From NCBI GenBank assembly GCA_947629825.1, contig CANRFF010000001.1, forward strand, positions 1 through 64,000: a DNA stretch of 64,000 nucleotides. Reading direction: 5' to 3'. This document shows positions 38,446-64,000 of this stretch, in pieces. The stretch comes from an uncultured Anaeroplasmataceae bacterium. Lineage in GTDB: Bacteria; Bacillota_I; Bacilli_A; Acholeplasmatales; Anaeroplasmataceae. Position 1 is the first letter of the stretch; each line of letters starts with the position of its first letter. The notes below the pieces were generated by a model. That model was not told where the DNA came from. It did no database searches and saw only the letters and a program-made list of their open reading frames with translations. The translations under genes were made by a program, and so were the position numbers.

Positions 38446-40686
38446 TTAAAGGGATTTTAAAAGTTGTAACGGATTTTGTTTTTGATTATACCGATAAAGC
38501 GGATAAATCAGGGAAACAATGAACAAAAACAAAGGAACACCGAACAAAAATAAAATCGTAGGGATTGAAATGATCGGAAGAACCAGCTGAACACCGAATA
38601 AACTGTTTAAAAGCGTATTGAGGGAAAAATTCATTACTACCGCCAAAGGAACGGCTCCCGAAAAAGTAAGGATTGCCGAAAAAACGGCTTGAATCAAATA
38701 TATTTTCGAAATATCGGAATAAGTCATTCCCAACACTTTATCAATGGCGATTTGTTTTTTATCGGATTCAATGGAATCCCAGGAAAATTTCAAACACAAA
38801 AGCACCCCAAGCAAGAACAAGACGATACTTAAATATAAAATGATGTTTTTCAGTAAGTCATAAGTATCTTTGATGGATTCCATCATAATCTCGTAAGGAC
38901 TTTCCACAACAAAATGATTTTTCTGAAAGAATTCGAGATTTTTTCGATTGATTTGTTCTTTTTCGGATAATTTCAAAAGAAAACCGGTTGTTTTCGGCGC
39001 CGTCGATTCCGTTCGGATCGTTTCGTAAAATTCTTCGGAAAGATAAATCCGATTTTCCGAACAAGATGATATGATTTTCACATTTTTTTCGCCTAAATTA
39101 TCGATTTTTATTTTGCTTTCTCCGATGAATGAGGTAGGGCAAATGATTTCGTTTCCCTGCAGATTTTTTGAAATTTGTACTTCCAGATCTCGATAGGAAA
39201 ATTCCTTATCGGCAGATTGGATGGAACAAGAAAGAGAAGAAACGGGCATTTGTTTGAAAAAATTCTCGTGGACAAAAAGAGCCGTATGGATTCCTTGATT
39301 TAAACTGTGTATTTCATCTGAAATGTGGTTGTTTGTTTTGTTTTCGATTTTGTTTTTATAATAGTCGTAATTGAATTTTGTATCGATTACACCCACAATC
39401 CGATATTCATGGGAATCGATATCAAACGGAACGGAAGTCAAATCTTCAAACGTATGGATGGAGTAGTTTGTGTTTTGATTCCGATATCCGAAAGCTTTAT
39501 AGGATTGAAACAGATAGTCGGTAATAACCACTTCATTTTCTTTGGTGGGAAAAGTTCCCTCGATGAGAAAATGATTGATTTTCTTTTGGTTTTGGGAAGA
39601 TAATACAATGATTCCCGAAAGATTGTCTTCCGCCAAACACAACGAAAAGCCGGAATACGTGCGGTTCGCAAAATTCGTATCTATCCCCGTTTGAAATCTG
39701 ATACAGGATTCCATATCCAAAACTTGATTTTGCAAAGCGGAATCAAGTTCCAAATCGGAAATATCTTTATTTGATTCCTCGGGTTTTAAGGTTAAAAAAG
39801 TGTCGTTAAAAGATTTTGCGGAATGTAGGAGGATTTCATTGGGATGATATTGATTCATTGTAAGAAAACTTCCGACAAACGCCAAAGATAAAATAATTGC
39901 AAATAAAATGAAAATATAAAATTTAAGATGATCATATAAATGATGAAAAGATTCCTTGATGATAAATTTTAAGGAAACGGAAGTTTTTTTAAAACAAAAA
40001 GGCTCGCATTCCGCATCGTAAAGTTGCGGTTGGGTATCGGAATGGATTTTTCCGTTTTCCAAGAGGATGATTCGATCGGCATAGGGCTTGATTAAAGAAA
40101 TGTCATGAGAAACGACAATTACCAGTTTTGTTTCGGAGATCTCTTTCAAAAGGTCTAAAATCATTGTCGCATTGTCAAGATCCAAAGAACTGGTCGGTTC
40201 ATCGGCAATCAGAATATTCGGATTTTTCAGTAAGGCTCTGGCAATGGAAACCCTCTGTTGTTCCCCTCCGGACAATTCGGAAGGATATTTGTCTTTGTGT
40301 TCTTCCAGTCCGAATTGATGAAGCAATTTTTCTATTTGATTTTCTTTCGAATTTTGAATTTCAAGCGGAAGAGATAAATTTTCAAAGACGGTTTTATTTT
40401 CAATCAGACAGAAATCCTGAAAGATAAAACCGATTTCACTGTTTCGGTATGCATTTAATTCTTTGCGGGATAAGTTTTTAAGATGGATATCCCGATAGAA
40501 TACATCACCCTCATAATCCGTATCCAGACCGGACAAGATGTTAATCAACGTCGATTTTCCGGCACCGCTTTTTCCACTGAAAAGAAGAAACCCTTTATTG
40601 TTGATTTTCAAAGAGATATCTTGTAAGGCAGAAGAACGTTTCCCTTTTTTGGACAAATATGTTTTCGTCAGATTTTCTATTTGCAT
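38446..40686 (-). CDS. ABC transporter: fused ATPase and FtsX-like permease (copy A)
   Basis: 746 residues in a MacB-like order. Residues 1-225 are the ATPase: Walker A SGKSGAGKST near 38-47, Q-loop FIFQDF, signature LSGGEQQR near 138, Walker B ILIADEPTSSLD near 157, H-loop VVSHD. A transmembrane helix near 247-270 precedes a large external domain (about 275-600), and three C-terminal helices form an FtsX permease (about 610-740). Such proteins couple ATP hydrolysis to work on extracytoplasmic substrates such as lipids, peptides or toxins. GAGG precedes the start, three bases after the stop of copy B. Its ATPase DNA is nearly identical to that of copy B while the permease parts differ completely. 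Confidence 0.9.
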   Translation of the reverse strand: MQIENLTKTYLSKKGKRSSALQDISLKINNKGFLLFSGKSGAGKSTLINILSGLDTDYEGDVFYRDIHLKNLSRKELNAYRNSEIGFIFQDFCLIENKTVFENLSLPLEIQNSKENQIEKLLHQFGLEEHKDKYPSELSGGEQQRVSIARALLKNPNILIADEPTSSLDLDNATMILDLLKEISETKLVIVVSHDISLIKPYADRIILLENGKIHSDTQPQLYDAECEPFCFKKTSVSLKFIIKESFHHLYDHLKFYIFILFAIILSLAFVGSFLTMNQYHPNEILLHSAKSFNDTFLTLKPEESNKDISDLELDSALQNQVLDMESCIRFQTGIDTNFANRTYSGFSLCLAEDNLSGIIVLSSQNQKKINHFLIEGTFPTKENEVVITDYLFQSYKAFGYRNQNTNYSIHTFEDLTSVPFDIDSHEYRIVGVIDTKFNYDYYKNKIENKTNNHISDEIHSLNQGIHTALFVHENFFKQMPVSSLSCSIQSADKEFSYRDLEVQISKNLQGNEIICPTSFIGESKIKIDNLGEKNVKIISSCSENRIYLSEEFYETIRTESTAPKTTGFLLKLSEKEQINRKNLEFFQKNHFVVESPYEIMMESIKDTYDLLKNIILYLSIVLFLLGVLLCLKFSWDSIESDKKQIAIDKVLGMTYSDISKIYLIQAVFSAILTFSGAVPLAVVMNFSLNTLLNSLFGVQLVLPIISIPTILFLFGVPLFLFIVSLIYPLYRYNQKQNPLQLLKSL

Positions 40687-40689
40687 AGG

Positions 40690-43137
40690 CTACCTCTTCA
40701 GCGCAACGAACGGATTGTTTCCTTTAAAATATTTTTTATAGCAAAGAAGCATAATCGGCAGTGTTAAAATCACATAGATCAAAGCGGATAGCAGAATCGA
40801 AATCCATAAATCATTCAGTGCGTTTAATGTAGTGGCAAAATGAGTGTTGATCATATCGAACAATCTGTAATATATTCCGTAAATCACTCCTATGGATAAC
40901 AGAAAAGTAAGCAAAGTGATAAAAAAGGAATGAAGAATATAAGGTTTTGCCACGTCTGTCCGGGAATAACCAAACGAAAAATAAAGCCCGATTTCTTTTT
41001 TATTGTGATAAAGAAGCGTTTTATAGTAAGAAATCAACATCAAAATCAGTATGAGAAACAGAATTACGGTAATCCCTAACATGATCAGCGTTAAAAACTG
41101 CAAAAACTCACCGGATTGATTTGCCATCAGTTGATAAGGATTGGTTATTCCCAAATTATATTTTTGTAATGTCCGCAACAAAGATAAATCTTTTTGTAAA
41201 TTTCCGGAAAGTTTGATCCACAAAGACGAAGAACCCCAAAAACCAAAGGTATTGTACAATTCCTCTTTGAACGTTTCACTGGTAATGAGAGAGTCTTTAA
41301 AGCCTTCGGTGTATATTCCTACCGGTTGGATCGCTATTTTGATGTCTTGAAAGGCACTTTCATAATCGGAAGTTGTGGAAAACGACAGATAATCGTATTG
41401 ACCTTTTTGAATTTCTTCTTTTTGATATTGTGCATAAGCGGGAAGAAGAACTTCGTTGTTTTCCAAATGATCTTTCGGTTCGGTAAACCAGATAATGTGA
41501 TCCTCTTGTAAAGAAATATCCTTATCGGAAAGACAATAATCAATGCTTCCGTTTAAATCAATGACATTCCGATTGGCGCTAGACATCAAAAAAGGTGCTG
41601 CAAAAATCGTATTTTTATCGAGAGGATTTCTTGTAAAATAACCGTCATTAAAAACGATAGTGCTGTAAGTGGAAGCGGAGATCAACCGGGAATGTTCGGT
41701 GCTTAAAGAAGTTTTCTGATCTTCGGATAAATTTTGGTCATCTATATGTTCATATCTTGTCAAATCCGCATTTCCGATCGAAAAGATTCCGCAGATCTGA
41801 AATTCCTTTTGATTGATTTTTACCGTATATTTCAATAAATCCCGATAAGAGTAAATTCTGTTTTTGGAAAATTCTTCCGATTCTTCTTTCAGTTGATTGT
41901 AGATCAACACAGGAACGGCGATTTCATTGTCGTCGGTTGGATAATTTCCTTCGACAAGATGAAAATCAAACGATTCGTAGGTCTGTGTTTTTTCTTCCAC
42001 ATATCCCGAAAACGTCGATTCGATGGAATCAATTTTATATTCGATTCCGTTAATTCGTTTGATGATATATTCATCTTTGAAAGTAATTCTCAAATCCATA
42101 AATTTGGAAAGATAGGAAAGAGAATTTGTTTTCAATAAGTCCATCTTTTTTTCTTGTAGTAATTGATCTGTCAAACCATTTGGAATCAAAGATGTCGCAG
42201 ACAGACTTTTTTCATATTTCGTATTTTCGGATTTATACATATCTTCCAAAAGAGAAACAGAAGCGTATAGTTCATGATCGGCATACATATTTTGCAGAAT
42301 AAGTTTATTTTTGTTTTGGGTGGCAAACGCAAATCCTATGGTAAACAAACTGAAACACAAGATAAAAAGAAATAAGGTAAAAACAATTTTAAAAACGGAT
42401 ATTTTCAATTTTAGAAATATGGAAAAAACTTTTTTCCAAGACAGATGTGCCGAAGTGAAATGATGTGTGTTTTCTTCTTGAATGGTTTCGAGTGGTTGGG
42501 AATCGGAACGGATTTTTCCATTTTCCAAGAGGATGATCCGATCGGCATAGGGCTTGATTAAAGAAATGTCATGAGAAACGACAATCGCCAGTTTTGTTTC
42601 GGAGATCTCTTTCAAAAGGTCTAAAATCATTGTCGCATTGTCAAGATCCAAAGAACTGGTCGGTTCATCGGCAATCAGAATATTCGGATTTTTCAGTAAG
42701 GCTCTGGCAATGGAAACCCTCTGTTGTTCCCCTCCGGACAATTCGGAAGGATATTTGTCTTTGTGTTCTTCCAGTCCGAATTGATGAAGCAATTTTTCTA
42801 TTTGATTTTCTTTCGAATTTTGAATTTCAAGCGGAAGAGATAAATTTTCAAAGACGGTTTTATTTTCAATCAGACAGAAATCCTGAAAGATAAAACCGAT
42901 TTCACTGTTTCGGTATGCATTTAATTCTTTGCGGGATAAGTTTTTAAGATGGATATCCCGATAGAATACATCACCCTCATAATCCGTATCCAGACCGGAC
43001 AAGATGTTAATCAAAGTCGATTTTCCGGCTCCGCTTTTTCCACTTAAAAGAAGAAATCCTTTATTGTTGATTTTCAAAGAGATGTCTTGTAAGGCCGTAA
43101 CCTTTTTATATTTTTTAGAGACATTTTCTATGACCAT
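40690..43137 (-). CDS. ABC transporter: fused ATPase and FtsX-like permease (copy B)
   Basis: 815 residues: ATPase domain (1-225) with the same motifs as copy A, a transmembrane helix near 265-285, an external domain of about 330 residues, and three C-terminal helices with the FtsX pattern. ATG 43137 is chosen because GGTGGGTGA lies just upstream and the family's usual first residues (VIENVSKKYKK) follow; the frame extends 29 codons further back without support. Promoter at 43157-43185. Copies A and B probably work as a heterodimer. Divergent from a LysR regulator gene, which may control them; that is inference. Confidence 0.9.
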   Translation of the reverse strand: MVIENVSKKYKKVTALQDISLKINNKGFLLLSGKSGAGKSTLINILSGLDTDYEGDVFYRDIHLKNLSRKELNAYRNSEIGFIFQDFCLIENKTVFENLSLPLEIQNSKENQIEKLLHQFGLEEHKDKYPSELSGGEQQRVSIARALLKNPNILIADEPTSSLDLDNATMILDLLKEISETKLAIVVSHDISLIKPYADRIILLENGKIRSDSQPLETIQEENTHHFTSAHLSWKKVFSIFLKLKISVFKIVFTLFLFILCFSLFTIGFAFATQNKNKLILQNMYADHELYASVSLLEDMYKSENTKYEKSLSATSLIPNGLTDQLLQEKKMDLLKTNSLSYLSKFMDLRITFKDEYIIKRINGIEYKIDSIESTFSGYVEEKTQTYESFDFHLVEGNYPTDDNEIAVPVLIYNQLKEESEEFSKNRIYSYRDLLKYTVKINQKEFQICGIFSIGNADLTRYEHIDDQNLSEDQKTSLSTEHSRLISASTYSTIVFNDGYFTRNPLDKNTIFAAPFLMSSANRNVIDLNGSIDYCLSDKDISLQEDHIIWFTEPKDHLENNEVLLPAYAQYQKEEIQKGQYDYLSFSTTSDYESAFQDIKIAIQPVGIYTEGFKDSLITSETFKEELYNTFGFWGSSSLWIKLSGNLQKDLSLLRTLQKYNLGITNPYQLMANQSGEFLQFLTLIMLGITVILFLILILMLISYYKTLLYHNKKEIGLYFSFGYSRTDVAKPYILHSFFITLLTFLLSIGVIYGIYYRLFDMINTHFATTLNALNDLWISILLSALIYVILTLPIMLLCYKKYFKGNNPFVALKR

Positions 43138-43156
43138 TTTTTCACCCACCGCATTT

Positions 43157-43185
43157 ATTTTACAATAGTTATTTTGAAGTGTCAA
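43157..43185 (-). promoter_or_regulatory. SigmaA promoter of the ABC-FtsX operon
   Basis: On the minus strand: TTGACA (43180-43185), 17 bases, TAAAAT (43157-43162), with TG before the -10. Confidence 0.85.
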
Positions 43186-43418
43186 ACAAAGAATAGTAGA
43201 TTTTATACATTTGGGAATTGTCAAGTCGATTATAATGGGAAACTGTATTTTTTCTCATAAATTTATGGTGTCTTTTGATTTTATCTCGTGCTTTTATTTG
43301 AAAGTAATGTACCCAAAAGGTCAAACCATCTTTTTTCTTTGCTCCAACTCTTGATTTTATTCCGAAAGAGTTATAAAATTTAAAATATCAATAAATTTTA
43401 TTTATGGGAGAAAAGAAG

Positions 43419-51625: not shown

Positions 51626-53011
51626 ATGTTGAAAGAAAATATCCGGGAAGAACAACCAGAACAAAAAGGAACGAAGGAAGAACATTCGGAGTTTCAACCA
51701 CCCAAAACGTTTTTCAAACGCAAGACGAAAATCTGTTTTGTCGTTTTTTGTTTTTTCTATCTGAATGCCTTGATAGGATATACAATGTATCGTTTATGGG
51801 AAAACAAAACATTACCGCAGATTCTTGTCGTTTCTTTTGTGGCGGTTGTTTTTAATTTTGCGTTGATTGCCTGTTTGATTCATTTATTACGAAATAAACC
51901 GATGATTGTTGCCGATGTTTCCGATTTGCTTCGGGAAATCGATTGTCCCAATGCTTATCCGGTGGAAATAAAAAAAGAAGATGCAGTCGAAGAGGATCTT
52001 TTGGAAGATGTCATCGCTGAGAAAGGTTCTTATGAAGAAATTTACAATCCGCAAGGTCAAGTGAAGTCGTTGAGTTTGGCTGATGCCTGTACTCAGTTTT
52101 GTGCGTATTCCGCTACGAGAGGATTGCTTGTCGACTATTCTACCGCCAGAGTTTTCTTCTCGGCGCTTACGACAACCAAATTGATTTTGATTCGCAGTAT
52201 TCAGGAAAATCTGGCGAAAAAGTTCATTACCATCGCCAAAGAATATTTTTCCAATCAGACGCCTCTTATTTTCATTGATTCGCAAATGATGACGAATCGC
52301 CAGTTTTTGAATCATCCGCTTTTCCGTCAAGCCGTGGAAGAAGCCAATGCGTTTCCCGATCGGATTACGCTTGCGGTGTTGGACGGAATGAGCATGAGTC
52401 AGATGGATAAAATTTTTGCGCCGATGATGCCGTTTATCGGAAAAGTCGAAAAAACATGGCCGATGAGCGGTGAGATGACGATTCCTCAAAATTTTTGGAT
52501 GGTTGCGCTTACCGAAGAAAATGAGTATTCCAAAGATCTGGCAATGAATACTCTGACTTTGGAATTGGATGGTCGTTTTGCGGAAGAAACGGAATTTACA
52601 GAAGAACTGAAATTGCTGAGTTACTCGAATCTTGTGGACAATCTGGTCGTGGATGACGATTTTCTCTATTCCATTTCGGAAGAAGATTGGAAGAAATTGG
52701 ACGAATTGGAAGACTATCTTCAAAGATATGCGAGATTTCATTTGGAAAACCGCTCGACGAATCAAATGGAAGACTTTGCGTTTGCCTATATGATTGCGGG
52801 TGGAGAAGAAAAAGATGCGCTGGACGGCGTTTTGGCTTGTAAGATTTTACCGCCGCTTCTTCAAAATTCCGAATTGACGTCGATGGAAAAAGAAGACAAT
52901 CTTTCTGCGAAAATCGAAGAACTATTCGATCCGGATCATCTTCAACACAGTCGTAAAGTTTTAAAGCGGGTGCAAAAGAAAGCAGAGGGATTGAAAAATG
53001 ATGTTGTTTAG
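51626..53011 (+). CDS. Membrane protein with inactive AAA-like domain (first gene of the system)
   Basis: 461 residues. A charged 30-residue N-terminus is followed by two transmembrane helices (about 34-52 and 66-88). An acidic linker leads to a cytoplasmic domain that lines up with the AAA proteins encoded next: FFSALTTTKLILIRSIQENL near 175-194 sits where their Walker A helix lies but has no GxxxxGK[ST]. LAVLDGMSMSQMDKIF near 250 replaces Walker B LDEMNIAR (Glu lost). PQNFWMVALTEEN near 288-300 parallels their sensor-1 segment PENMWFIGTANND. I infer a catalytically dead paralogue, perhaps a structural subunit of the AAA ring. The ribosome site is weak (GGGGA). Confidence 0.7.
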   Translation: MLKENIREEQPEQKGTKEEHSEFQPPKTFFKRKTKICFVVFCFFYLNALIGYTMYRLWENKTLPQILVVSFVAVVFNFALIACLIHLLRNKPMIVADVSDLLREIDCPNAYPVEIKKEDAVEEDLLEDVIAEKGSYEEIYNPQGQVKSLSLADACTQFCAYSATRGLLVDYSTARVFFSALTTTKLILIRSIQENLAKKFITIAKEYFSNQTPLIFIDSQMMTNRQFLNHPLFRQAVEEANAFPDRITLAVLDGMSMSQMDKIFAPMMPFIGKVEKTWPMSGEMTIPQNFWMVALTEENEYSKDLAMNTLTLELDGRFAEETEFTEELKLLSYSNLVDNLVVDDDFLYSISEEDWKKLDELEDYLQRYARFHLENRSTNQMEDFAFAYMIAGGEEKDALDGVLACKILPPLLQNSELTSMEKEDNLSAKIEELFDPDHLQHSRKVLKRVQKKAEGLKNDVV

Positions 53012-54380
53012 TGCCAATGATTTTTTTCATCAACTTTGGAATTTTTTATCCAGTAAATATGCGATGATTGTTTATGTGGCTCTGATTTTGATTTTAATTG
53101 TCATTTTGACCATTTTCGTTATGGTAAACGAACACAGAAAGGCAGAAATTTACCGGGTGACGGACGAAGAAGAAATCATTTATGAAAATCCGAAAGATGC
53201 TCCTTCTTCCGCTTCGCCCGTGGAATCTTCTCGGGTACCGGAGACTCCTTCTGCGGAACAAGGCGAAGAAGAACCGAAAGAAGAGAACAAAACGGAAGAA
53301 AAAAGCCGGTTTTATATGTTGAGTCAAATCGATCGGGAGATGGAACATTACGAAGCCCCGGAGTATGATGATAAAGTTACACTGAAAGAAATCTGCGAAC
53401 GGTTTCGCCGATATGCGGGAAGCCGGTTGGGATTATATTACGATATTCAGGATATCCGAAGATTTATCGCAGGGATGGCGGTAACGCATATTATGATATT
53501 ACAAGGGATGTCCGGAACCGGAAAAACATCGCTTGCGTATGCGTTCGGAGAATTCTTACGGAATCGGACGGTGATTGTACCGATTCAACCGATGTGGAAA
53601 GAGCGAACGGATTTGTTGGGATATTATAACGAGTTTACAAAGAAGTTCAATGAGACGATGTTACTGGAAAAGATGTATGAAGCCAATTATAACGACGAGA
53701 TCTATATTACGGTTTTGGATGAAATGAATATCGCAAGAGTAGAGTATTATTTTGCGGAATTTTTATCGTTATTGGAGATTCCGAATCAAGAAGGAAGAAA
53801 TATCGATGTAGTGAGTGACCGGTGGGAAAACGATCCGAAGTTATTGAAAAACGGACAGTTGAGATTACCGGAGAATATGTGGTTTATCGGTACGGCGAAT
53901 AACGACGATTCGACCTTTGCGATATCAGATAAGGTCTATGACCGAGCGATGATTATGAATTTGGATAAGAAAGCGACGGTATTCGAAGAAGGGGAAGAAG
54001 AATCGATGAAGATATCAAGCAGTCATCTTCACCGATTGTATAAAGAGGCAATGAAAGAATATCGTATCACAAGAAGGAATCTGAATCGGATCAAAGAATT
54101 GGATGAGTATATGATCAAAGAGTTTCACCTGACGTTTGGAAACCGGATAATGAAACAGATCCGGAGTTATGTACCGGTGATTGTGGCGTGCGGAGGAACG
54201 GAGTTGGAAGCGATTGATGATATCTTGTCAAGGAAGATCATTCGGAAATTGGAGTCGCAAAATCCGGTATATGTCAGAAATTCCGCAAGTGGATTGATTA
54301 CTTATATGGATGAATTATTCGGAGAAGACAAATTGCCTTTATGTAAGGCTTATATCGAACGAATCAAACGGACAGTTTAG
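52998..54380 (+). CDS. Membrane-anchored McrB/MoxR-like AAA ATPase (copy A)
   Basis: 460 residues. One transmembrane helix (about 20-43, YAMIVYVALILILIVILTIF), a Ser/Pro/Glu-rich acidic linker (about 55-110), then a cytoplasmic AAA domain: Walker A LQGMSGTGKTS near 169-179, Walker B TVLDEMNIARVEYYFAEFLS near 237-256 (the DEMN form typical of McrB and MoxR-like AAA), sensor-1 FIGTANNDDSTF near 296, and arginine-containing SDKVYDRAMIM near 310. A helical C-terminal lid ends the protein. From 53264 to the stop its DNA matches copy B (56542-57658). It overlaps the preceding gene by 14 bases. Confidence 0.85.
   Translation: MMLFSANDFFHQLWNFLSSKYAMIVYVALILILIVILTIFVMVNEHRKAEIYRVTDEEEIIYENPKDAPSSASPVESSRVPETPSAEQGEEEPKEENKTEEKSRFYMLSQIDREMEHYEAPEYDDKVTLKEICERFRRYAGSRLGLYYDIQDIRRFIAGMAVTHIMILQGMSGTGKTSLAYAFGEFLRNRTVIVPIQPMWKERTDLLGYYNEFTKKFNETMLLEKMYEANYNDEIYITVLDEMNIARVEYYFAEFLSLLEIPNQEGRNIDVVSDRWENDPKLLKNGQLRLPENMWFIGTANNDDSTFAISDKVYDRAMIMNLDKKATVFEEGEEESMKISSSHLHRLYKEAMKEYRITRRNLNRIKELDEYMIKEFHLTFGNRIMKQIRSYVPVIVACGGTELEAIDDILSRKIIRKLESQNPVYVRNSASGLITYMDELFGEDKLPLCKAYIERIKRTV
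53264..54380 (+). repeat. Long direct repeat, unit 1 (AAA module)
   Basis: About 1,117 bases identical by eye to 56542-57658 (offset 3,278), covering the end of the linker and the whole AAA domain. The only differences I saw are two bases near the 3' end (CGG/CGA codon and TAG/TAA stop). Upstream of 53264 the two genes diverge quickly, with patches of similarity back to about 53207. Confidence 0.92.
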
Positions 54381-54401
54381 TTTTGAAGGAGGGATCACAA
54401 A

Positions 54402-56219
54402 TTGGATAAATCAGATGTTTTATATCGTGCTTTTTGTGATTACCGCAAATGGACCGAAGGAAATAAAGAGTGCCGATATCAACGAAAAGAATTAAGACAA
54501 GCCGATTCGGATAAAGATTGGATTAAGACGAAAAAGTATATTTGTTCGATCGATGAAGATTGGGTTGTGGAAATCGAGAATTCTTTGGAATTTATTGTGA
54601 ATGCCATTCAGGAAGAACGGCAGTTTATTACGTCTATGGGCGAAGTGGTACCGATCGAAAAAGTTCGAAAAGTATCGAAAGCTTCCGTGGAGCATTTGGC
54701 CCGGCACAGCAATTTGATTACGCATGTTCCGGAAGAAGAAAAAGCCGATTTGGTCCCGGAAAAAATTTATATGGTCGAAAAACTGGCGGATTATACGGTT
54801 TACGAAAATCGCTTTTTGTATATGCTTCTTTGTTATTTAAGGGATTTTATCGAATTGCGGTTGAATAAAATCACGGCGATGACCAGTCGTTTTACGGGGT
54901 CTTACGAAGCCGATAAAAAAATAGAAAGTAAGTTGGCGAAATTTCAGTATCAGATTCGATTTTACGAGGAGCGTTCGGATAATCCGAAACCGTTGTTTTC
55001 GGCCAATTCCGATGATCTGTTCGACCGCATCAAATCGATTCAGCATACGGTTTTGTCTTTGTTGAATACGCCTTTGATGATTGAGGTTTCCAAAGCTCCG
55101 ATGATCAAACCGCCGATTGTCAAAACGAATCCTTTGAAGATGAACAACAATTTCAAACACGCTTTGGCGCTTTATGAATTCGTTTCCGCCTACGACAAAG
55201 ACGGTTTTACAATCGAAGAACAGGAAAAAAATTTCCATCCGTTTCCGGATGTCGTCTCCGATGAAGTTTCGGAATTGATGGTATTGACTTCTTTTTTGGT
55301 TTTCCTCTACGGAAATGATCTGAGAGCGGATTTGAAATTACGTTATGAAGCCGACGAAGAACGCCGAAAAGAAGCGGAAGCCAAGCATTTGGTAGAACAA
55401 ATCAAGCGTTTGAAACGAAGAATTCTGGAATCCGGTATGGGTACGGAAGAATATATGTTGTTGTTGGAACAGCGGAATCGGGATTTAGAAAAGGCCAATA
55501 CGGAATTGGTAATTGCCAAACAGTTGATCGAGCAGTTGAATACGCAAATCAACGATTTGAAAGATAAAAATCAGCAACTGCAAAAAGAGATTCGGCGGAA
55601 AGAAGCCGAAATCACGGCATTGAACGAAAAATATATTCATGATTTGAATGAACAGCAACAGGCCTATGAAGCGCAGATCGAACAAATGAGCGAAGAACAT
55701 CTGGAAGAAATTGCCGATTTGGAACAAGCCCACCAACAGGAGTTGGAAGATTTACAGGCGCAACATATCGAGGAATTGGATGAACAGGCGCTGTCTTTCG
55801 AAAACGAAAAACAACAGTGGCAGGAAGAGTTGGATTTGGCCGAACAGGCGAAAGAAGAATTGGTTCGTCGTCATCAGGAAGAACTTTCCGAGTTGGATCA
55901 AAAGCGGGAAGAAGAAAAAGGTTCTTTCGAACAGACATTGGAAAAACAAAATTCCGAAGCGTTGGAATTGGAAAAGAAACTTGCCGGACTGACGGAAGAA
56001 AAAAGATTGCTTTCGGCTCAGTTGAAAAGCGAACTCCAACAAAGAGGTCTGACGAAAGATATGGATTTTACTTCCAAGGAAAATTTTCAGGAATTGGAAA
56101 AAGAATATCAGGCATTTACCCGTTTTTTTCAGGAACAGTGGAAAGAAACAAAGAAAAAAATAAGAAAAGATATCCTTTGGAACAGCGAACCGAAGAAAAA
56201 GAACAAAGAAGAATCTTAA
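54402..56219 (+). CDS. Coiled-coil protein with DUF2357-like N-terminal half
   Basis: 605 residues, soluble. Residues about 1-300 are globular; the segment DYTVYENRFLYMLLCYLRDFIELRL near 127-151 is like the Y-x-x-x-ENRF signature of DUF2357 proteins, which accompany McrB-type AAA proteins. Residues about 310-560 form a long, highly charged coiled coil (heptads rich in Glu, Gln, Lys, e.g. LEKANTELVIAKQLIEQL). No PD-(D/E)xK nuclease motif is visible at the end, unlike McrC. The start is TTG 54402 with GGAGGG 8-9 bases upstream. It sits between the two AAA copies, 21 and 23 bases from them, so it is probably their partner. DUF2357 membership needs a profile search. Confidence 0.7.
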   Translation: MDKSDVLYRAFCDYRKWTEGNKECRYQRKELRQADSDKDWIKTKKYICSIDEDWVVEIENSLEFIVNAIQEERQFITSMGEVVPIEKVRKVSKASVEHLARHSNLITHVPEEEKADLVPEKIYMVEKLADYTVYENRFLYMLLCYLRDFIELRLNKITAMTSRFTGSYEADKKIESKLAKFQYQIRFYEERSDNPKPLFSANSDDLFDRIKSIQHTVLSLLNTPLMIEVSKAPMIKPPIVKTNPLKMNNNFKHALALYEFVSAYDKDGFTIEEQEKNFHPFPDVVSDEVSELMVLTSFLVFLYGNDLRADLKLRYEADEERRKEAEAKHLVEQIKRLKRRILESGMGTEEYMLLLEQRNRDLEKANTELVIAKQLIEQLNTQINDLKDKNQQLQKEIRRKEAEITALNEKYIHDLNEQQQAYEAQIEQMSEEHLEEIADLEQAHQQELEDLQAQHIEELDEQALSFENEKQQWQEELDLAEQAKEELVRRHQEELSELDQKREEEKGSFEQTLEKQNSEALELEKKLAGLTEEKRLLSAQLKSELQQRGLTKDMDFTSKENFQELEKEYQAFTRFFQEQWKETKKKIRKDILWNSEPKKKNKEES

Positions 56220-56242
56220 TGTAATTGAAGGAGGTGAAAACA

Positions 56243-57658
56243 ATGATCCATAAAAAACATACGATCCGATTGATTTTATTTTTGATGATCGTTTTCCTTG
56301 TGGGCGGACTTTTAATCTATGCTCTTTGGAACAGCAATATCGATTCCGCAAACACTTGGGTCAATTCCGAAGTGATTTATATGGTTCTTGTTTTAGCCGT
56401 CCTTTTACCGATTTTTTTAATCGTATTGATTGCGAAAGTTTCCAATCGGGAAACGGAAGTGTTTGAAGTTACTCAAGCGAAAAATCCTTCCGCTTCGCCC
56501 ATGGAATCTTCTCGGGTACCGGAGTCTTCTGCGGAAAAAACCGAAGAAGAACCGAAAGAAGAGAACAAAACGGAAGAAAAAAGCCGGTTTTATATGTTGA
56601 GTCAAATCGATCGGGAGATGGAACATTACGAAGCCCCGGAGTATGATGATAAAGTTACACTGAAAGAAATCTGCGAACGGTTTCGCCGATATGCGGGAAG
56701 CCGGTTGGGATTATATTACGATATTCAGGATATCCGAAGATTTATCGCAGGGATGGCGGTAACGCATATTATGATATTACAAGGGATGTCCGGAACCGGA
56801 AAAACATCGCTTGCGTATGCGTTCGGAGAATTCTTACGGAATCGGACGGTGATTGTACCGATTCAACCGATGTGGAAAGAGCGAACGGATTTGTTGGGAT
56901 ATTATAACGAGTTTACAAAGAAGTTCAATGAGACGATGTTACTGGAAAAGATGTATGAAGCCAATTATAACGACGAGATCTATATTACGGTTTTGGATGA
57001 AATGAATATCGCAAGAGTAGAGTATTATTTTGCGGAATTTTTATCGTTATTGGAGATTCCGAATCAAGAAGGAAGAAATATCGATGTAGTGAGTGACCGG
57101 TGGGAAAACGATCCGAAGTTATTGAAAAACGGACAGTTGAGATTACCGGAGAATATGTGGTTTATCGGTACGGCGAATAACGACGATTCGACCTTTGCGA
57201 TATCAGATAAGGTCTATGACCGAGCGATGATTATGAATTTGGATAAGAAAGCGACGGTATTCGAAGAAGGGGAAGAAGAATCGATGAAGATATCAAGCAG
57301 TCATCTTCACCGATTGTATAAAGAGGCAATGAAAGAATATCGTATCACAAGAAGGAATCTGAATCGGATCAAAGAATTGGATGAGTATATGATCAAAGAG
57401 TTTCACCTGACGTTTGGAAACCGGATAATGAAACAGATCCGGAGTTATGTACCGGTGATTGTGGCGTGCGGAGGAACGGAGTTGGAAGCGATTGATGATA
57501 TCTTGTCAAGGAAGATCATTCGGAAATTGGAGTCGCAAAATCCGGTATATGTCAGAAATTCCGCAAGTGGATTGATTACTTATATGGATGAATTATTCGG
57601 AGAAGACAAATTGCCTTTATGTAAGGCTTATATCGAACGAATCAAACGAACAGTTTAA
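56243..57658 (+). CDS. Membrane-anchored McrB/MoxR-like AAA ATPase (copy B)
   Basis: 471 residues. Unlike copy A it has two transmembrane helices (about 7-29 and 43-67) with a short external loop (NSNIDSANTWVNSE). The acidic linker and the AAA domain are then the same as in copy A: Walker A near 181, DEMN Walker B near 248, sensor-1 GTANNDDST. The protein sequence from the linker (about residue 100) to the end is identical to copy A. AAGGAGGTGA precedes ATG 56243. Two active copies with distinct anchors may make mixed rings or act at different membrane partners. Confidence 0.85.
   Translation: MIHKKHTIRLILFLMIVFLVGGLLIYALWNSNIDSANTWVNSEVIYMVLVLAVLLPIFLIVLIAKVSNRETEVFEVTQAKNPSASPMESSRVPESSAEKTEEEPKEENKTEEKSRFYMLSQIDREMEHYEAPEYDDKVTLKEICERFRRYAGSRLGLYYDIQDIRRFIAGMAVTHIMILQGMSGTGKTSLAYAFGEFLRNRTVIVPIQPMWKERTDLLGYYNEFTKKFNETMLLEKMYEANYNDEIYITVLDEMNIARVEYYFAEFLSLLEIPNQEGRNIDVVSDRWENDPKLLKNGQLRLPENMWFIGTANNDDSTFAISDKVYDRAMIMNLDKKATVFEEGEEESMKISSSHLHRLYKEAMKEYRITRRNLNRIKELDEYMIKEFHLTFGNRIMKQIRSYVPVIVACGGTELEAIDDILSRKIIRKLESQNPVYVRNSASGLITYMDELFGEDKLPLCKAYIERIKRTV
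56542..57658 (+). repeat. Long direct repeat, unit 2 (AAA module)
   Basis: Second unit of the 1.1-kb direct repeat described at 53264-54380. Recombination between the units would delete the coiled-coil gene and leave one hybrid AAA gene. Confidence 0.92.
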
Positions 57659-57678
57659 AAAGAAAGGAGATGAGTTCT

Positions 57679-60513
57679 GTGGTTCGCAAAGGAAAAAGAG
57701 CGGTTTATATTTTGGGAAGTGTCATCATAGGACTCATTTTTGTTCTGTTTGTTTATTTTGTGATGATTTCCATCGGCGTGATTCAACCGCGGAAAACGGA
57801 TTTGGTGATTATGTCGTCTACGATTCAAAAACAATATGACGGAAGTGCTTTGGTCGGAACCGGTTATGAGATCGTGGAAGGAAAACTGAAAGACGGTCAC
57901 CATTTGAATGTGGAATTTACTTCTTCCATCACAGAAATCGGTTCTTGCGACAATGAAATCAATGTTCAGGTCTTGGATTTGGAAGGTGCCGATATTTCCA
58001 ACCGATACAATTTACAGTTGGAATATGGAAAACTGATCGTTCGCAAACGGGCGCTGACCATTCAGATTTTGAATAAAACCAAAGTATACGACCGCACCCC
58101 ATTGGTTGTGGAAGAAAGCGACTGGACGGTTGTCAACGGAAGTGTTCTTCCGACCGATGAGTTGACGGTTACCGTGCAGGGCGAACGAACGGAAGTCGGT
58201 CAGGAACAGTGTTATATGACCGCAACGCTGACAAATATGAACGGACAGGATGTCAGCGATAATTATGATGTTCGTTTTCTCGGCGGATTGTTGGAAGTAA
58301 CGGGAAGACCGCTGACCATTCAAGTCGGCAGCGCAACGAAACTTTATGACGGACTTCCTTTGACGGCAGAAGATTACGAAATCGTTGAAGGGGGACTTTT
58401 TGAAAATCATCATTTGGAATTGGAATATTTGGGTTCACAAACCGAAGTCGGTGCTTCCGATTCGACGGCTCGAGGTGTCGTTTTGGATGAATCGGGAAAC
58501 GATGTTACCAAAGATTATGCCATTACGTATCTTCCGGGGACTTTGGAGGTAACGACCATCGATTTGAAAGTTTATACCGAAGATATCAGTAAAACCTACG
58601 ATGGAACGCCACTCGTTTGCGAAGATGAAACAAAAGTCCGATTTGAATCTCTTTTACCGAATCATCAGGTAACTTTCCGTTTTACCGGTTCCCAGACCAA
58701 TGTGGGAGAATGTGAAAATACCGTTGAAATCGTAAGTATTGTCGACGAAAACGGAAAAGATGTCACAAAAGCATACAACATCAACAATGAATTCGGTAAA
58801 TTGAAAGTTCAAAAATGCAGAGTGGATATCCGTTTCCAGAATCTCCGGTATTCTTATGACGGAATGGAACATTTTTATGAAGATAGCGAAGAAAATTGGA
58901 GTATTTCTCCGCTTGGGTTTCCGAATCATCGGGTGGAAGTTCATATTGAAGAAGCCGGATTGACGGAAGTCGGAACGAAAAACATCAAGGTTACCTCCAT
59001 GAACGTATATCGTGAAGACAATAACGAAGATGTATCCTCGAATTTTACTTTTCCGACCAATCTGAGAATCACACTGGAAATTACCAAATGTAAGATCAAA
59101 ATCAAAAGTAATGATATTGTTAGTGTCGAATATGACGGAACCGATCATAAAGATTCGAAAAACGTTGAAATCATATCGTCGGATTCTCCTTTTTCCGATT
59201 TGAAGATAGAATGTTCTTTTAGTGAATTGACGAAAGAAGTCGGCATTTTTAAAAATGAATTTACGATCAACAAAATCACAAACGATCAAGGACAGGATAT
59301 CACCAAAAATTTCGATATCGAATCCGAATTTGGAGAAATCAACATTACCAAGATCTCTCTTAAAATCGTTACGGCAACACTTGAAAAAGAGTATGACGGT
59401 ACCCCGCTTTTCCCGGAGCCGACAGATTGGGCTTTGGTGAGCGGAAGATTGGTAGATGGTGATACGATTAACGGCGAGTTAAACGCTTTTCAACAAGAAA
59501 TCGGATCCAAAGATAATGTTTTATCGAATTTGACGATTGGCAATGAGACGACGAAAGCCGATCATATGAATCACTATGAGGTGAATTGTGAGTGGGGAAA
59601 ACTGATTGTCTATGCGAATGACCGACATCAGATTACGATTTCTCCTCGACCGATTTATATCGATGAACAAGATTGGGACAAATCTCTTATCAAGGCCGAT
59701 AAATATTTACAGGAACAATACTCGCTCAATCCGGAATTGACCCCAATCATCGGATTCGGTGAATGGTTGGCTCAAGGATATCGTATCGAGGCTTCCATCG
59801 AAGGCGAGTTGAATGAAGTCGGTGCGGTTGAAACGAAGATCACGTATAACACTATCAGGGTTTATATGGGAGAAGAGGACGTCACTTCCGAATTCTTTTT
59901 CCAGACAAAACCATCGATTTTGCAGATTTATCAATATCGTTTACGGATTACGACTCCTTCGGCTCGGAAAGAATATGACGGAACCCCGCTTAAAACCACA
60001 ACGGAGGGCTGTTCGTATTCGATTACTTACCATGGCGAAATATATGAAACCAAAGATGAAATTTCTTATGAACTCATCGGTCAGCAGACGGAAGTCGGGT
60101 TGTCATATAATTCGGTTCGGGTAACGATTGCCGGAGAAACGGATTTCGAAGGAGAACGTTATAAATTATATTATATTGACGATTCGGCGTTCGGACGTTT
60201 GGAAGTAACCAGAAAAAGAGTGATTATTTCTTCCGAAAGCAAGACCATTACCCAGGAAGAACTGGAAAGAGATTATCCGATCGGATTTGTTTGGGAAAAA
60301 TATACGATTGACGGTGTTGCTCCCGACGAATTGCCTCAGGAGTGGGATCTGTTTGATATTCAGATTACGTTCAGTCCGGAAGCCAGACTGGATGGTGTCG
60401 GGCAGACGCTCAATGAATTTACGGTAAGAATCATCCTGAAAGAAACCGGTCAGGATGTCACAAAGAATTTTATTTGTTTCAATTCTTTTGGAGATTTGAT
60501 TGTAGAAGAATAA
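57679..60513 (+). CDS. Giant membrane-anchored YDG/MBG-repeat protein, first
   Basis: 944 residues. A short basic N-terminus, one transmembrane helix (about 8-35, YILGSVIIGLIFVLFVYFVMI), then only repeats of roughly 85-90 residues. Each unit has K-x-Y-D-G-T-P-L near its start, a G-x-L-x-x-x-H segment, a T-x-V-G turn, D-V-(T/S)-x-N-Y and a closing G-x-L-x-V strand. Eight copies show the YD signature and about two more are degenerate. Such units are Ig-like (YDG/MBG families) and usually extracellular. No LPXTG or second helix is seen, so it should project outward from an N-terminal anchor. GTG 57679 fits the AAAGGAG at 57663-57669 better than ATG 57670, only one base away. Confidence 0.85.
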   Translation: MVRKGKRAVYILGSVIIGLIFVLFVYFVMISIGVIQPRKTDLVIMSSTIQKQYDGSALVGTGYEIVEGKLKDGHHLNVEFTSSITEIGSCDNEINVQVLDLEGADISNRYNLQLEYGKLIVRKRALTIQILNKTKVYDRTPLVVEESDWTVVNGSVLPTDELTVTVQGERTEVGQEQCYMTATLTNMNGQDVSDNYDVRFLGGLLEVTGRPLTIQVGSATKLYDGLPLTAEDYEIVEGGLFENHHLELEYLGSQTEVGASDSTARGVVLDESGNDVTKDYAITYLPGTLEVTTIDLKVYTEDISKTYDGTPLVCEDETKVRFESLLPNHQVTFRFTGSQTNVGECENTVEIVSIVDENGKDVTKAYNINNEFGKLKVQKCRVDIRFQNLRYSYDGMEHFYEDSEENWSISPLGFPNHRVEVHIEEAGLTEVGTKNIKVTSMNVYREDNNEDVSSNFTFPTNLRITLEITKCKIKIKSNDIVSVEYDGTDHKDSKNVEIISSDSPFSDLKIECSFSELTKEVGIFKNEFTINKITNDQGQDITKNFDIESEFGEINITKISLKIVTATLEKEYDGTPLFPEPTDWALVSGRLVDGDTINGELNAFQQEIGSKDNVLSNLTIGNETTKADHMNHYEVNCEWGKLIVYANDRHQITISPRPIYIDEQDWDKSLIKADKYLQEQYSLNPELTPIIGFGEWLAQGYRIEASIEGELNEVGAVETKITYNTIRVYMGEEDVTSEFFFQTKPSILQIYQYRLRITTPSARKEYDGTPLKTTTEGCSYSITYHGEIYETKDEISYELIGQQTEVGLSYNSVRVTIAGETDFEGERYKLYYIDDSAFGRLEVTRKRVIISSESKTITQEELERDYPIGFVWEKYTIDGVAPDELPQEWDLFDIQITFSPEARLDGVGQTLNEFTVRIILKETGQDVTKNFICFNSFGDLIVEE

Positions 60514-60536: not shown

Positions 60537-63500
60537 ATGGAAAGTTTATATGAAAAATATGAACAGAAAATGAAGAAAATCGCTCATATCAAAAATACGA
60601 TTTTACGTTTTAAAATCTTAATACTTTCCGCTTTCGCCCTGGTCATCGGCTTGGTCGTGAGTTATTTGTCCGTTTGCGGGATGATTTTAACCGATCTTCC
60701 TCCGATGACGGAAATGACTTACGGCGATGTGATTTCCTGTGAAACGAGCGCACTGTTTTCCAAGGTTCATTACGAATATTCTTTGGCTTCGGTCGAAACA
60801 TGGTCCGATGAGGTTCCGAAACTTCCCGGAGAATATAAAATCCGTGCCGTTTCGCATCGGAGTTTCGGAATAAAAGGGTATGGAAAAGAGTATCCGTTTA
60901 CGATTCTTGCGAAAAACATCGATGTTCGGATTTTGGAATCTTCTGTGGAATTCGGTGGGGTTCCGACTCCCGTGAGTACGGGTTTGGTCGGAAAAGATCA
61001 TTTTGTTTATGACGGGCAGTGTTTTGAATTTGCCGATCGCACAATTCAAAAGACGAAAGTATCTTTGAAAGAAAATACGCTTAAAATCGTCGATGAAGAA
61101 GGAACCGATGTCACTGCCGGATATATTATGAATCTTGAAAAAGACAAAGATATTTCTTATGTCGCAAGAAAACTGACGATTCAGTTAAAAGATCAGACCA
61201 AAGAATATGACGGAACTCCATTGACTTCCGAAGAATATGATATTGTCGGCGGAAGTCTTTTGGAAGGACACCGGTTGGAAATTGGGGTCAAGGGGTCTCA
61301 GTTGAATGTCGGCAGTAGTAACAATATTGGTGTGTCTGCCAGAATTTTATCGGACAATGAAGATGTTTCCGCCAATTATCAGGTTCAGTTTCTTTCGGGA
61401 CGGTTGACGATTCAAAAACGGAAAATTACGATTCAAACGGATAGTGATCAAAAAATATATGACGGCAAAACTTGGATTCGACCGGATTACGGATATGAAC
61501 TTTCCGAAGGAAATCTGGTTTCCGGACATCAGATTAAAGTCGTATCCAAACCGACGGTGCTGACAGTGGGAACGTATGCCAATCATTTCGATTTTCAAAT
61601 TGTGGATTCCCAAGGCGAAGATGTAACCGGAAATTACGAATTGACTTTGGAAGAGGGAACGCTAGAAGTTCTTCCGAAACCGATCACCATTTCCACAAAA
61701 GAGGCGTCCAAAATTTACGACGGCATTCCGTTGGTGGAATATGCTTTGACGGAAGAACCGACTTTGGCCGAAAATCAACAGTATCGTATTTCTTATACGG
61801 GAAGCCAACTCTTTGTCGGGGAATCGGAAAACAAAGCGACGATTTCGCTTTATGAAGGTTCGGTCAATGTGACCTCGAATTATCAGATTACGTACCATTA
61901 CGGAAAATTAAAAGTGGAAGCCCGATCCTTGACCATTCGGCCGAAAATCGGCTCGTGGATTTATGACGGCACCTATAAAACCATATCGCAAGTCGATTAT
62001 TTGTCGAGTTCTTTGGCTGCTTCCGATCGCATCGAAGTTGAAACCGATCGGATCCGAAATGTAGTAGACGGATATGAAAATCACATCCGGAATATAAAGA
62101 TTTATCATGGAACTACCGAAGTTACCCAATGTTATGATATCATCAAACAGACGAATACCATGACGATTACCCGCCGTCCGCTTCGAATCGAACCGCAAGG
62201 AGAAACGTTGACTTATGACGGGTTGGAACATTCGCTTTCTCAATATCGGTTATCAAATTCGACAACGCTGGGAAGCGGAGATGTTTTGAAAATCGAAACG
62301 CCGGCTCATTGGAAAACAGGTATTTATGTGTTATCCGTTACGTCGTATTCCATCACTTATGAAAATGAAGATGTGTCTTCGAATTATGAGGTGACGTTAA
62401 ATACCGGACAACTGAACATTCAGACAAGAACGATTTATCTGACTACCAAATCGGCAGAAAAAGTTTACGATAATCAACCGCTTACCTGTTATGAAGTCCA
62501 ACTGGATCGTAACACGTCTTTGGCGTCTACCGACCGGTTACAGATGTCTTATTCGAATTCGATTCTCGAACCGGGAAGTACTTCCAATCTTGCGACTGCC
62601 ACTATTGTTCATTCCGGGGAAAACGTCAACCATTGTTATCACATTGTGTGGAGTTACGGAAAGTTGACGATTCTCAAGCGACCGCTTTCATTACGAGCGA
62701 TGTCGGCAGACAAAGAATATGACGGAACACCGCTGGAAGCGACCTCTTATGAAGTGGTCGGAGCCTATGACGTTCTTTTGGGACATACGTTATTGGTAAC
62801 GGTTGCGGGAAGTATTACCGATTACGGAACGAGTCCGAACCGGATTGTTTCTCATCAAATTGTCGATGAAAATCATAAAGATGTATCCGAAAATTATAAA
62901 GTTGAATATCTGGAAGGCATTTTGAAAATCAGTCAGAGAACCATTCTTGTCCAAACGGGAACGGAAGAATGGGAATATGACGATCAGGCGCATTCCAATG
63001 AAGTGATTTCCGCAGATCGTTTGGTGGAAGGACATCAGTTGAAAATTCAAACCAAAGAAACGATTACGGAAGTGGGAAATAAAGCCAATGAGATTACGGT
63101 AAAAGTGATCGCAGGGACACAAGATGTAACGAACAATTATTCCATTCGTTATGATTACGGAAATCTATCGGTGACTCCGAGAAAGATGACGGTGACGACT
63201 CCTACTCATACCTGGATCTATCAATCTTACGATTTTTCCGATCCCGAAATCGAAACAGATCGTTTGATATCGACTCATACGACGAAAATTTCTTCTTATC
63301 CGACCATTCGTCATGTCGGAAGTATTTCCAATAATGTTTTGGTTGAGATTATGAAAGACGGAGTTTCCGTCACAAAAAATTATGAGATTACCTATGTATA
63401 TGGAACGTTGTCGATTACACCGCAACGGTTGGAGTTGGAGATTCTCGACAAAGTCAAAGAATATGACGGAGAAGAATTGACTTCCGATGAATATTCGGTT

Positions 63501-64000
63501 TCGGGATTACAAGGGGCGGATCGGATTGTGGTTTTGACCACGACCGGTCGTGTTACTTATGTTCATGAAGGATTTGTGGAAAATGGTTTGAATTCGCTTC
63601 AAATTCTCGATGAATTCGGAACGGATGTGGTAAAAGATTATGAAGTAGTGGTTCAAAAAGGAACGTTGTCGATTACGCCGAGACCTTTGGTTGTGAAACC
63701 GCTCGATTTGGAAAAGATTTATGATTCCACTCCTTTGGTACATAAATCTTCGGATTTTGAGACGATTCGCTCGACCTCGTTGGTTTTGAAAGATTACGGA
63801 CAAATGAGTACCGCCAATCGTTCGGTAACAAATGTTTGGGACGGAATTGTGCAAAATCAGATTACGGAATTCAAAATCTTCAATGAAAACGGCTTGGATA
63901 TTACTTCAAGTTATGAAATTACCTATGAAACGGGAACGTTGAAAATCAATCCGAGACCGATTTTAATCGAGACCGGAAGTTACGATGAAATTTATGACGG
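60537..64000 (+). CDS. Giant membrane-anchored YDG/MBG-repeat protein, second (truncated by window end)
   Basis: An open frame of at least 1,154 codons with no stop before the end of the window. ATG 60537 follows GGAGGAG. After a charged, coiled N-terminus of about 20 residues comes one transmembrane helix (about 25-47, FKILILSAFALVIGLVVSYL). A non-repeat external stretch to about residue 150 follows, then YDG/MBG-like units every 250 bases or so. YD motifs occur near 61206, 61456, 61716, 61961, 62216, 62466, 62718, 62981, 63467, 63720 and 63992. Units are diverse in DNA, unlike the AAA copies. It is the second giant repeat protein of the operon, 23 bases after the first. Confidence 0.85.
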   Translation, partial: MESLYEKYEQKMKKIAHIKNTILRFKILILSAFALVIGLVVSYLSVCGMILTDLPPMTEMTYGDVISCETSALFSKVHYEYSLASVETWSDEVPKLPGEYKIRAVSHRSFGIKGYGKEYPFTILAKNIDVRILESSVEFGGVPTPVSTGLVGKDHFVYDGQCFEFADRTIQKTKVSLKENTLKIVDEEGTDVTAGYIMNLEKDKDISYVARKLTIQLKDQTKEYDGTPLTSEEYDIVGGSLLEGHRLEIGVKGSQLNVGSSNNIGVSARILSDNEDVSANYQVQFLSGRLTIQKRKITIQTDSDQKIYDGKTWIRPDYGYELSEGNLVSGHQIKVVSKPTVLTVGTYANHFDFQIVDSQGEDVTGNYELTLEEGTLEVLPKPITISTKEASKIYDGIPLVEYALTEEPTLAENQQYRISYTGSQLFVGESENKATISLYEGSVNVTSNYQITYHYGKLKVEARSLTIRPKIGSWIYDGTYKTISQVDYLSSSLAASDRIEVETDRIRNVVDGYENHIRNIKIYHGTTEVTQCYDIIKQTNTMTITRRPLRIEPQGETLTYDGLEHSLSQYRLSNSTTLGSGDVLKIETPAHWKTGIYVLSVTSYSITYENEDVSSNYEVTLNTGQLNIQTRTIYLTTKSAEKVYDNQPLTCYEVQLDRNTSLASTDRLQMSYSNSILEPGSTSNLATATIVHSGENVNHCYHIVWSYGKLTILKRPLSLRAMSADKEYDGTPLEATSYEVVGAYDVLLGHTLLVTVAGSITDYGTSPNRIVSHQIVDENHKDVSENYKVEYLEGILKISQRTILVQTGTEEWEYDDQAHSNEVISADRLVEGHQLKIQTKETITEVGNKANEITVKVIAGTQDVTNNYSIRYDYGNLSVTPRKMTVTTPTHTWIYQSYDFSDPEIETDRLISTHTTKISSYPTIRHVGSISNNVLVEIMKDGVSVTKNYEITYVYGTLSITPQRLELEILDKVKEYDGEELTSDEYSVSGLQGADRIVVLTTTGRVTYVHEGFVENGLNSLQILDEFGTDVVKDYEVVVQKGTLSITPRPLVVKPLDLEKIYDSTPLVHKSSDFETIRSTSLVLKDYGQMSTANRSVTNVWDGIVQNQITEFKIFNENGLDITSSYEITYETGTLKINPRPILIETGSYDEIYD

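Follow-up and report, generated by a model that had tools for sequence, protein, structure and literature searches.

Apparent domain-limited concerted evolution of paired McrB-like genes with different membrane anchors in an uncultured Anaeroplasmataceae bacterium and its relatives

Paralogous genes can be repeatedly homogenised by recombination. This is described for the tuf genes of Salmonella, where conversion drops towards the gene ends (PMC5485169), a trend that the mismatches reported below also suggest, and for 26 prokaryotic genes with long-lasting concerted evolution (PMC6053082). The nearest precedent for the present locus is provided by mtrA-1 and mtrA-2 of methanogens, paralogues in one operon whose transmembrane domains differ. 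Their soluble domains, which alone are homogenised by enduring gene conversion, cluster by species; PMC4632066 presents this as the first example of a gene in which two domains evolve in opposite ways.

Here we describe an operon of an uncultured bacterium, lying in the window (the whole stretch of 64,000 nucleotides analysed), in which a McrB-like module appears to have behaved similarly. Differently anchored paralogues lie in one operon, the modules are closer within a genome than between genomes (35 of 35 two-copy loci, and in a tree), and there is a conversion-tract signal (9 of 11 pairs). Set against mtrA as presented in PMC4632066, which encodes archaeal methyltransferase subunits, the proteins here are bacterial and of the AAA+ class, a further gene lies between the copies, and there are both non-homogenised relatives and apparent deletions. 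The tuf copies are homogenised as whole genes, whereas here a single protein domain is affected.

By family the operon is related to McrBC, sharing a McrB-like AAA+ module and a McrC-like DUF2357 fold. It would differ in its membrane anchors, the lack of a visible nuclease domain, its surface repeat proteins, and the presence of two predicted active AAA+ genes together with one that lacks the motifs. In CoCoNuT systems a nuclease (HEPN or other) is encoded alongside; Pfam, which could miss an unrecognised nuclease, gives none in the six operon proteins or in the two downstream proteins scanned. The operon also resembles the CoCoPALM systems, which are named in PMC11090510 and left there for a later paper; as outlined in that source these share the NxD motif, a membrane-anchored McrB-like protein, a coiled-coil DUF2357 partner and a link to surface structures. 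As outlined there, these systems are also marked by a linked signal peptidase and an FtsB-like domain. In the present operon Pfam detects no signal peptidase among the six proteins, and two homogenised McrB-like genes and MBG/YDG proteins set it apart. Another locus in the window genome, C4 (L040:7817-12161, minus strand), resembles the CoCoPALM systems named there, with a 45%-identical module, a DUF2357-like gene, a SipW-like signal peptidase and several similar secreted proteins. Our literature search, which most subscription papers lay outside, found neither a fuller description of CoCoPALM nor a description of the present operon.

The operon and its products

The window opens a contig of 263 kb, covering its first 64 kb; the genome totals 1.42 Mb in 12 contigs. 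Six genes form a same-strand cluster (Table 1), and their order, P1-AAA1-DUF2357-AAA2-MBG1-MBG2, is conserved across genomes. A complete MBG2 gene is present in locus L038. MBG1 and MBG2 are ~26% identical in amino acid sequence, in keeping with the observation of the first-pass annotation that the surrounding repeat genes are strongly diverged.

Table 1. Positions of the operon genes and their parts within the window
Feature	Position	Strand	Description	Basis or remark
P1	51626..53011	+	Membrane-anchored AAA+ fold, predicted pseudo-enzyme, third paralogue; upstream of AAA1	Identity, predicted fold, motif scan
AAA1	52998..54380	+	One-helix anchor, acidic linker and McrB-like NxD module	
AAA1 anchor helix	53064..53120	+	Residues 23-41	Kyte-Doolittle scan
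Repeat copy 1	53264..54380	+	Apparently homogenised module of AAA1	2 mismatches in 1117 against copy 2
DUF2357 gene	54402..56219	+	DUF2357 (McrC-like) domain and long coiled coil; no nuclease domain seen	Pfam on homologues, structure comparison
AAA2	56225..57658	+	Two-helix anchor, acidic linker and McrB-like NxD module	Start TTG 56225 or ATG 56243
AAA2 anchor hairpin	56270..56431	+	Residues 16-34 and 51-69	Kyte-Doolittle scan
Repeat copy 2	56542..57658	+	Apparently homogenised module of AAA2	Base comparison with copy 1
MBG1	57670..60513	+	N-terminal hydrophobic stretch, MBG/YDG repeats	YDG domain, E 1e-16
MBG2	60537..64000	+	Longer MBG/YDG repeat protein; continues past the window to contig position 66368	YDG, E 2.4e-08

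The two repeat copies lie as direct repeats ~3.3 kb apart. Comparison base by base confirms the near-identity first reported, silent sites included: there are two differences in 1117 bases, both G versus A, at 54371 and at 54380 in the stop codon. Both lie at the extreme 3' end, and directly outside the repeats identity falls to background. On the left the break falls in the acidic linker, as had been claimed, and the contrast between one anchor helix in AAA1 and two in AAA2 is reproduced by a Kyte-Doolittle hydropathy scan, from which all the transmembrane helices of the two proteins are predicted. The anchors had also been called unrelated, and this we must correct. Beyond the break, on its left side, the sequences remain similar in a diverged and gapped form (SASPVESSRVPE against SASPMESSRVPE), and the anchor regions are 24% identical over 50 aligned columns. 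Besides the two copies, the whole genome contains two distant homologues of the module (41% and 22% identity).

A second domain-limited identity occurs elsewhere in the window, in an unrelated family. Tandem ABC transporter genes on the minus strand (38503-40689 and 40690-43224) have ATP-binding domains that are 98.2% identical over 602 bases, with membrane parts ~10-25% identical in protein. The first of these genes has a strong match in one of the other 54 genomes of the family.

When a profile of 31 modules was compared with solved structures, only McrB was matched at E up to 0.01 (best 6.6e-07). The module retains Walker A, Walker B and the motif GTANNDDS, in which a single residue occasionally varies; this corresponds to the McrB GTPase signature in its NxD form, as set out in PMC11090510. 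The AAA1/AAA2 module is thus a McrB-like AAA+ domain and a predicted GTPase, with GTP its likely substrate to judge by the motif. Since the NxD motif is that of McrB-like GTPases, the earlier label of ATPase is probably wrong. The catalytic motifs are present in both copies in 46 of 46 pairs, and on this ground we reject the idea that one of the two subunits is inactive.

The gene between the copies apparently encodes a McrC-like DUF2357 protein without a nuclease. PF09823 (DUF2357) is recognised in 22 of 47 homologues but not in the protein encoded in the window. For the predicted model of the latter, the top four structural matches are all McrC, from two organisms, with Z of 8.9-7.7 over residues 46-269, a size of score that can arise by chance; the next, unrelated structure has Z 5.5. 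Plain Foldseek gave no match at E up to 0.001, though McrC came second. After residue 283 the model is all-helical, with a long helix where McrC has its nuclease, and no PD-(D/E)xK nuclease was found after the DUF2357 domain. Pfam identified no nuclease domain in this protein, in the other five operon proteins or in the two downstream proteins scanned, a search that unrecognised nucleases could escape.

P1 is 20-22% identical to AAA1 and AAA2. In structure comparison its model is closest to MoxR/RavA (Z 14.0/13.7), with McrB at Z 12.6. Walker A, Walker B and NxD motifs were not found in it, and the Walker A pattern is absent from the C-terminal parts of all 32 aligned P1 proteins. We predict that P1 is a pseudo-enzyme with an AAA+ fold. 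In many relatives it is longer, at 950-1290 residues, and the two long homologues scanned (L097:6474-9701 and L095:6477-9767) have an unusual fusion, with a GH3 C-terminal and an Fn3-like domain preceding the membrane part and the motif-less AAA+ domain. A search of NCBIfam did not yield an informative name for P1, MBG1 or the DUF2357 protein.

Homogenisation among related genomes

The GTDB genome collection was scanned, and the best 80 of 130 confirmed stretches gave 65 loci. With the window and the genome G083 this makes 67 loci, of which 35 have two full modules. The other 32, in which there is a single full copy or a contig end truncates a copy, were left out of the pair comparison. The 35 are the nearest relatives of the window's module and not a sample of all such modules.

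Within this set, drawn from the best 80 of 130 stretches, the silent difference between the two modules of a genome is smaller than that to the nearest module of another genome in every one of the 35 loci. The median pS is 0.019 within a genome and 0.65 to the nearest other genome. Over all between-genome comparisons it is 0.87, so that silent sites are nearly saturated, and for this reason we reject a conserved DNA or RNA signal within the module. Silent and replacement sites are both homogenised. Mismatches were counted in 33 pairs, leaving out L110 and L115, whose module lengths differ; eight pairs have none, 26 have at most 10, 29 at most 20, and four have more (43 to 82). By BLAST the two copies in L113 are 98% identical over 408 bases. 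The repeat spacing ranges from 2940 to 3806 bases across loci.

For 70 of 70 modules the nearest module is the partner in the same genome, whereas for 70 of 70 anchors the best match outside the genome is at the same position. Since modules cluster by genome and anchors match by position, the duplication that paired the two anchors must predate these species, and the modules have apparently been overwritten since. The comparison thus points to an old duplication whose modules are repeatedly homogenised, that is, to domain-limited concerted evolution, in which the modules are seemingly copied over each other in most of the related species examined while the anchors stay different. The first-pass annotation had favoured recent gene conversion over a recent whole-gene duplication. 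That preference for conversion is now strongly supported by anchors orthologous by position, shared gene order and modules that cluster by genome, both in the counts above and in the tree; the word recent understates a pattern that recurs in over 30 genomes. Some closely related modules (L018-L053, L093, L096) come from genomes labelled Acholeplasmatales, Haloplasma and Clostridia that are mixed in the tree, which may reflect horizontal transfer or wrong labels on metagenome-assembled genomes (MAGs).

Near-identity within genomes together with large distances between them would also be expected if the module had been duplicated recently and independently in each lineage, each time becoming joined to a second anchor. 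However, the second anchor, its position and the intervening DUF2357 gene are shared between genomes, so the same fusion would have to arise dozens of times, and mosaic pairs would not be expected. The positional matching of all 70 anchors and the shared gene between the copies contradict such duplications, and we consider them very improbable indeed.

Mosaic pairs are in fact observed. In a permutation test of 11 pairs, nine had an identical run whose length was reached in no more than one of 5000 permutations. In the mosaic pairs L056 and L057 such runs measure 380 and 389 nt and were matched in 0 of 5000, and L081 and L103 are likewise mosaic (1 of 5000 each); no significant run was found in L088 and L090. 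The remaining differences are concentrated at the module ends. The 21 pairs that have 1-20 mismatches contain 129 in all, of which 93 lie in the first 135 or last 45 nt, where 21.6 would be expected and 10,000 simulations never gave more than 39; these limits were set once the data had been inspected. Twelve equal bins give the same end bias, with counts of 39, 17, 3, 1, 2, 1, 1, 3, 2, 3, 8 and 49.

Short-read assembly could imitate this bias, because differences far from the unique flanks merge most easily. Most of the genomes are short-read MAGs, and contigs of several relatives end inside the module, as might be seen if an assembler had copied or merged a single or moderately diverged module. 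Small internal differences may thus have been merged, leaving the exact identity and the end bias partly uncertain. Yet G083, assembled as one contig of 1,554,229 bases, has no differences in 1077 bases and 35 further identical bases to the left, and an artefact is therefore disfavoured as a general explanation. In the isolate Anaerocaecibacter muris (L090) there are 16 differences in 1074, spread over the module; many other pairs keep a few real differences, and each copy has its own, conserved flanking genes. On the evidence of the one-contig genome and the isolate we reject a general artefact, and we rate as improbable the view that assembly has created the pattern.

The explanation we favour, with high confidence for a reading drawn from sequence, is an old duplication followed by repeated gene conversion between the direct repeats of what would be a membrane-bound McrB/McrC-like operon. 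We infer conversion from the near-identity, its recurrence, the orthology of the anchors and the mosaic tracts. The crowding of mismatches at the tract ends, the one-contig G083 and the six single-copy loci described below also favour it. Against it count L090, whose 16 differences are dispersed and show no significant identical run, and the loci with diverged copies. The duplication would have created the two modules, and repeated homologous recombination, probably by a RecA-type pathway, would keep them nearly identical. The converted tract would be limited by homology, its borders being the linker upstream and the stop codon downstream, and the two anchors would therefore keep separate identities. 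Purifying selection would retain both genes and the DUF2357 gene between them, because simple recombination joining the two repeats would remove the latter along with an anchor. Conversion and ordinary purifying selection are sufficient for the pattern.

Diverged and single-copy loci

Homogenisation is not universal. In Anaeroplasma bactoclasticum (L115) the copies differ with pS 0.57 and pN 0.27, and those of L110 are also strongly diverged (pS 0.47, pN 0.24). We also searched 396 genomes of the order of Anaerocaecibacter muris and took 12 loci, comprising 11 pairs and one single copy; other two-copy genomes of this search were left out. Ten genomes have the same arrangement, with copies ~2.9-3.7 kb apart that are 53-71% identical, and a further pair (L135) is 79.5% identical. 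The DUF2357 gene lies between the copies in all six of the 11 loci that were annotated. A quick tree of 98 rows groups the first copies from these ten genomes in one clade (SH-aLRT 97) and their second copies in another (91), as ordinary paralogues do. Two McrB-like modules 15 kb apart in another genome (L139, G048; 944-2026 and 15801-16883) are 83.7% identical in protein, and other distant pairs within one genome are 62-75% identical.

These loci bear on whether identity is itself selected. If differently anchored subunits mixed in one ring they might have to match, and conversion that restored identity would be favoured. This is compatible with gene conversion as the process, and agrees with the retention of catalytic motifs in both copies of all 46 pairs, with the homogenisation of silent and replacement sites alike, and with the action of McrB relatives as hexamers (entries 6ut6 and 6hz4; also PMC11090510). 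But in the ten genomes, as in A. bactoclasticum, both genes persist although their modules have diverged strongly, and since the ten keep copies only 53-71% identical, module identity is not required for keeping both genes. Furthermore, the four pairs with 43-82 differences have pN of 0.006-0.011 at pS of 0.17-0.34, roughly the level of an ortholog pair (L056/L057, 0.018 at 0.42), so no extra constraint is visible. Selection for identical subunits, which the first-pass annotation had offered as an alternative to conversion, is thus neither shown nor needed, and we regard it as unlikely, if by no means far-fetched.

At six single-copy loci (L083, L087, L095, L097, L100 and L114) the first-type anchor and module are followed directly by MBG1. 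These look like deletions by recombination between the repeats, because such an event would produce this structure. A search of the contigs of these six genomes did not find the DUF2357 gene, which was present in the two other genomes searched. The single-copy state may instead be an effect of assembly, given that contigs under 3 kb are outside the genome collection.

What the operon may do

The simplest reading of the operon is a membrane-bound McrB-like ring with a McrC-like partner, which would act on the repeat proteins encoded beside it, as kinship and gene neighbourhood suggest. Its parts can be graded separately. That both subunits co-assemble in one ring is a possibility we hold tentatively, at somewhat below even chances, and a role in handling the surface repeat proteins is to our minds just as conceivable and just as provisional.

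McrB/McrC kinship might suggest defence instead, by a system like Type IV restriction, and AAA1 matches the PADLOC candidate model PDC-M26A (E 1.1e-46). This sits poorly with the membrane anchors, the constant linkage to surface repeat proteins, the absence of a Pfam nuclease domain from the six operon proteins and the modelled helical C-terminus in place of the McrC nuclease, and we think a defence system doubtful.

A more speculative idea, which we put forward as rather unlikely in its entirety, is that conversion takes the place, at the DNA level, of alternative splicing. A single GTPase module would be continually copied onto two anchors, and the differently anchored subunits would mix in one membrane ring beside the motif-less third subunit and the McrC-like coiled-coil activator. 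The ring would drive the handling or assembly of the surface Ig-like repeat proteins, and where conversion stops the subunits would specialise, as in the clade of ten genomes and, long ago, in P1.

Domain-limited concerted evolution between differently anchored paralogues, which is a rare mode of gene evolution and open to testing, would now extend to dozens of bacterial genomes and to a McrB-like system. The analysis also brings out a putative membrane-bound, apparently nuclease-less McrBC-like operon tied to surface proteins. Three natural states occur side by side: pairs that are homogenised, pairs that have diverged, and loci apparently reduced by deletion to one copy. It can therefore be tested whether conversion simply follows from the closeness of the repeats or whether mixed rings depend on it to keep working.
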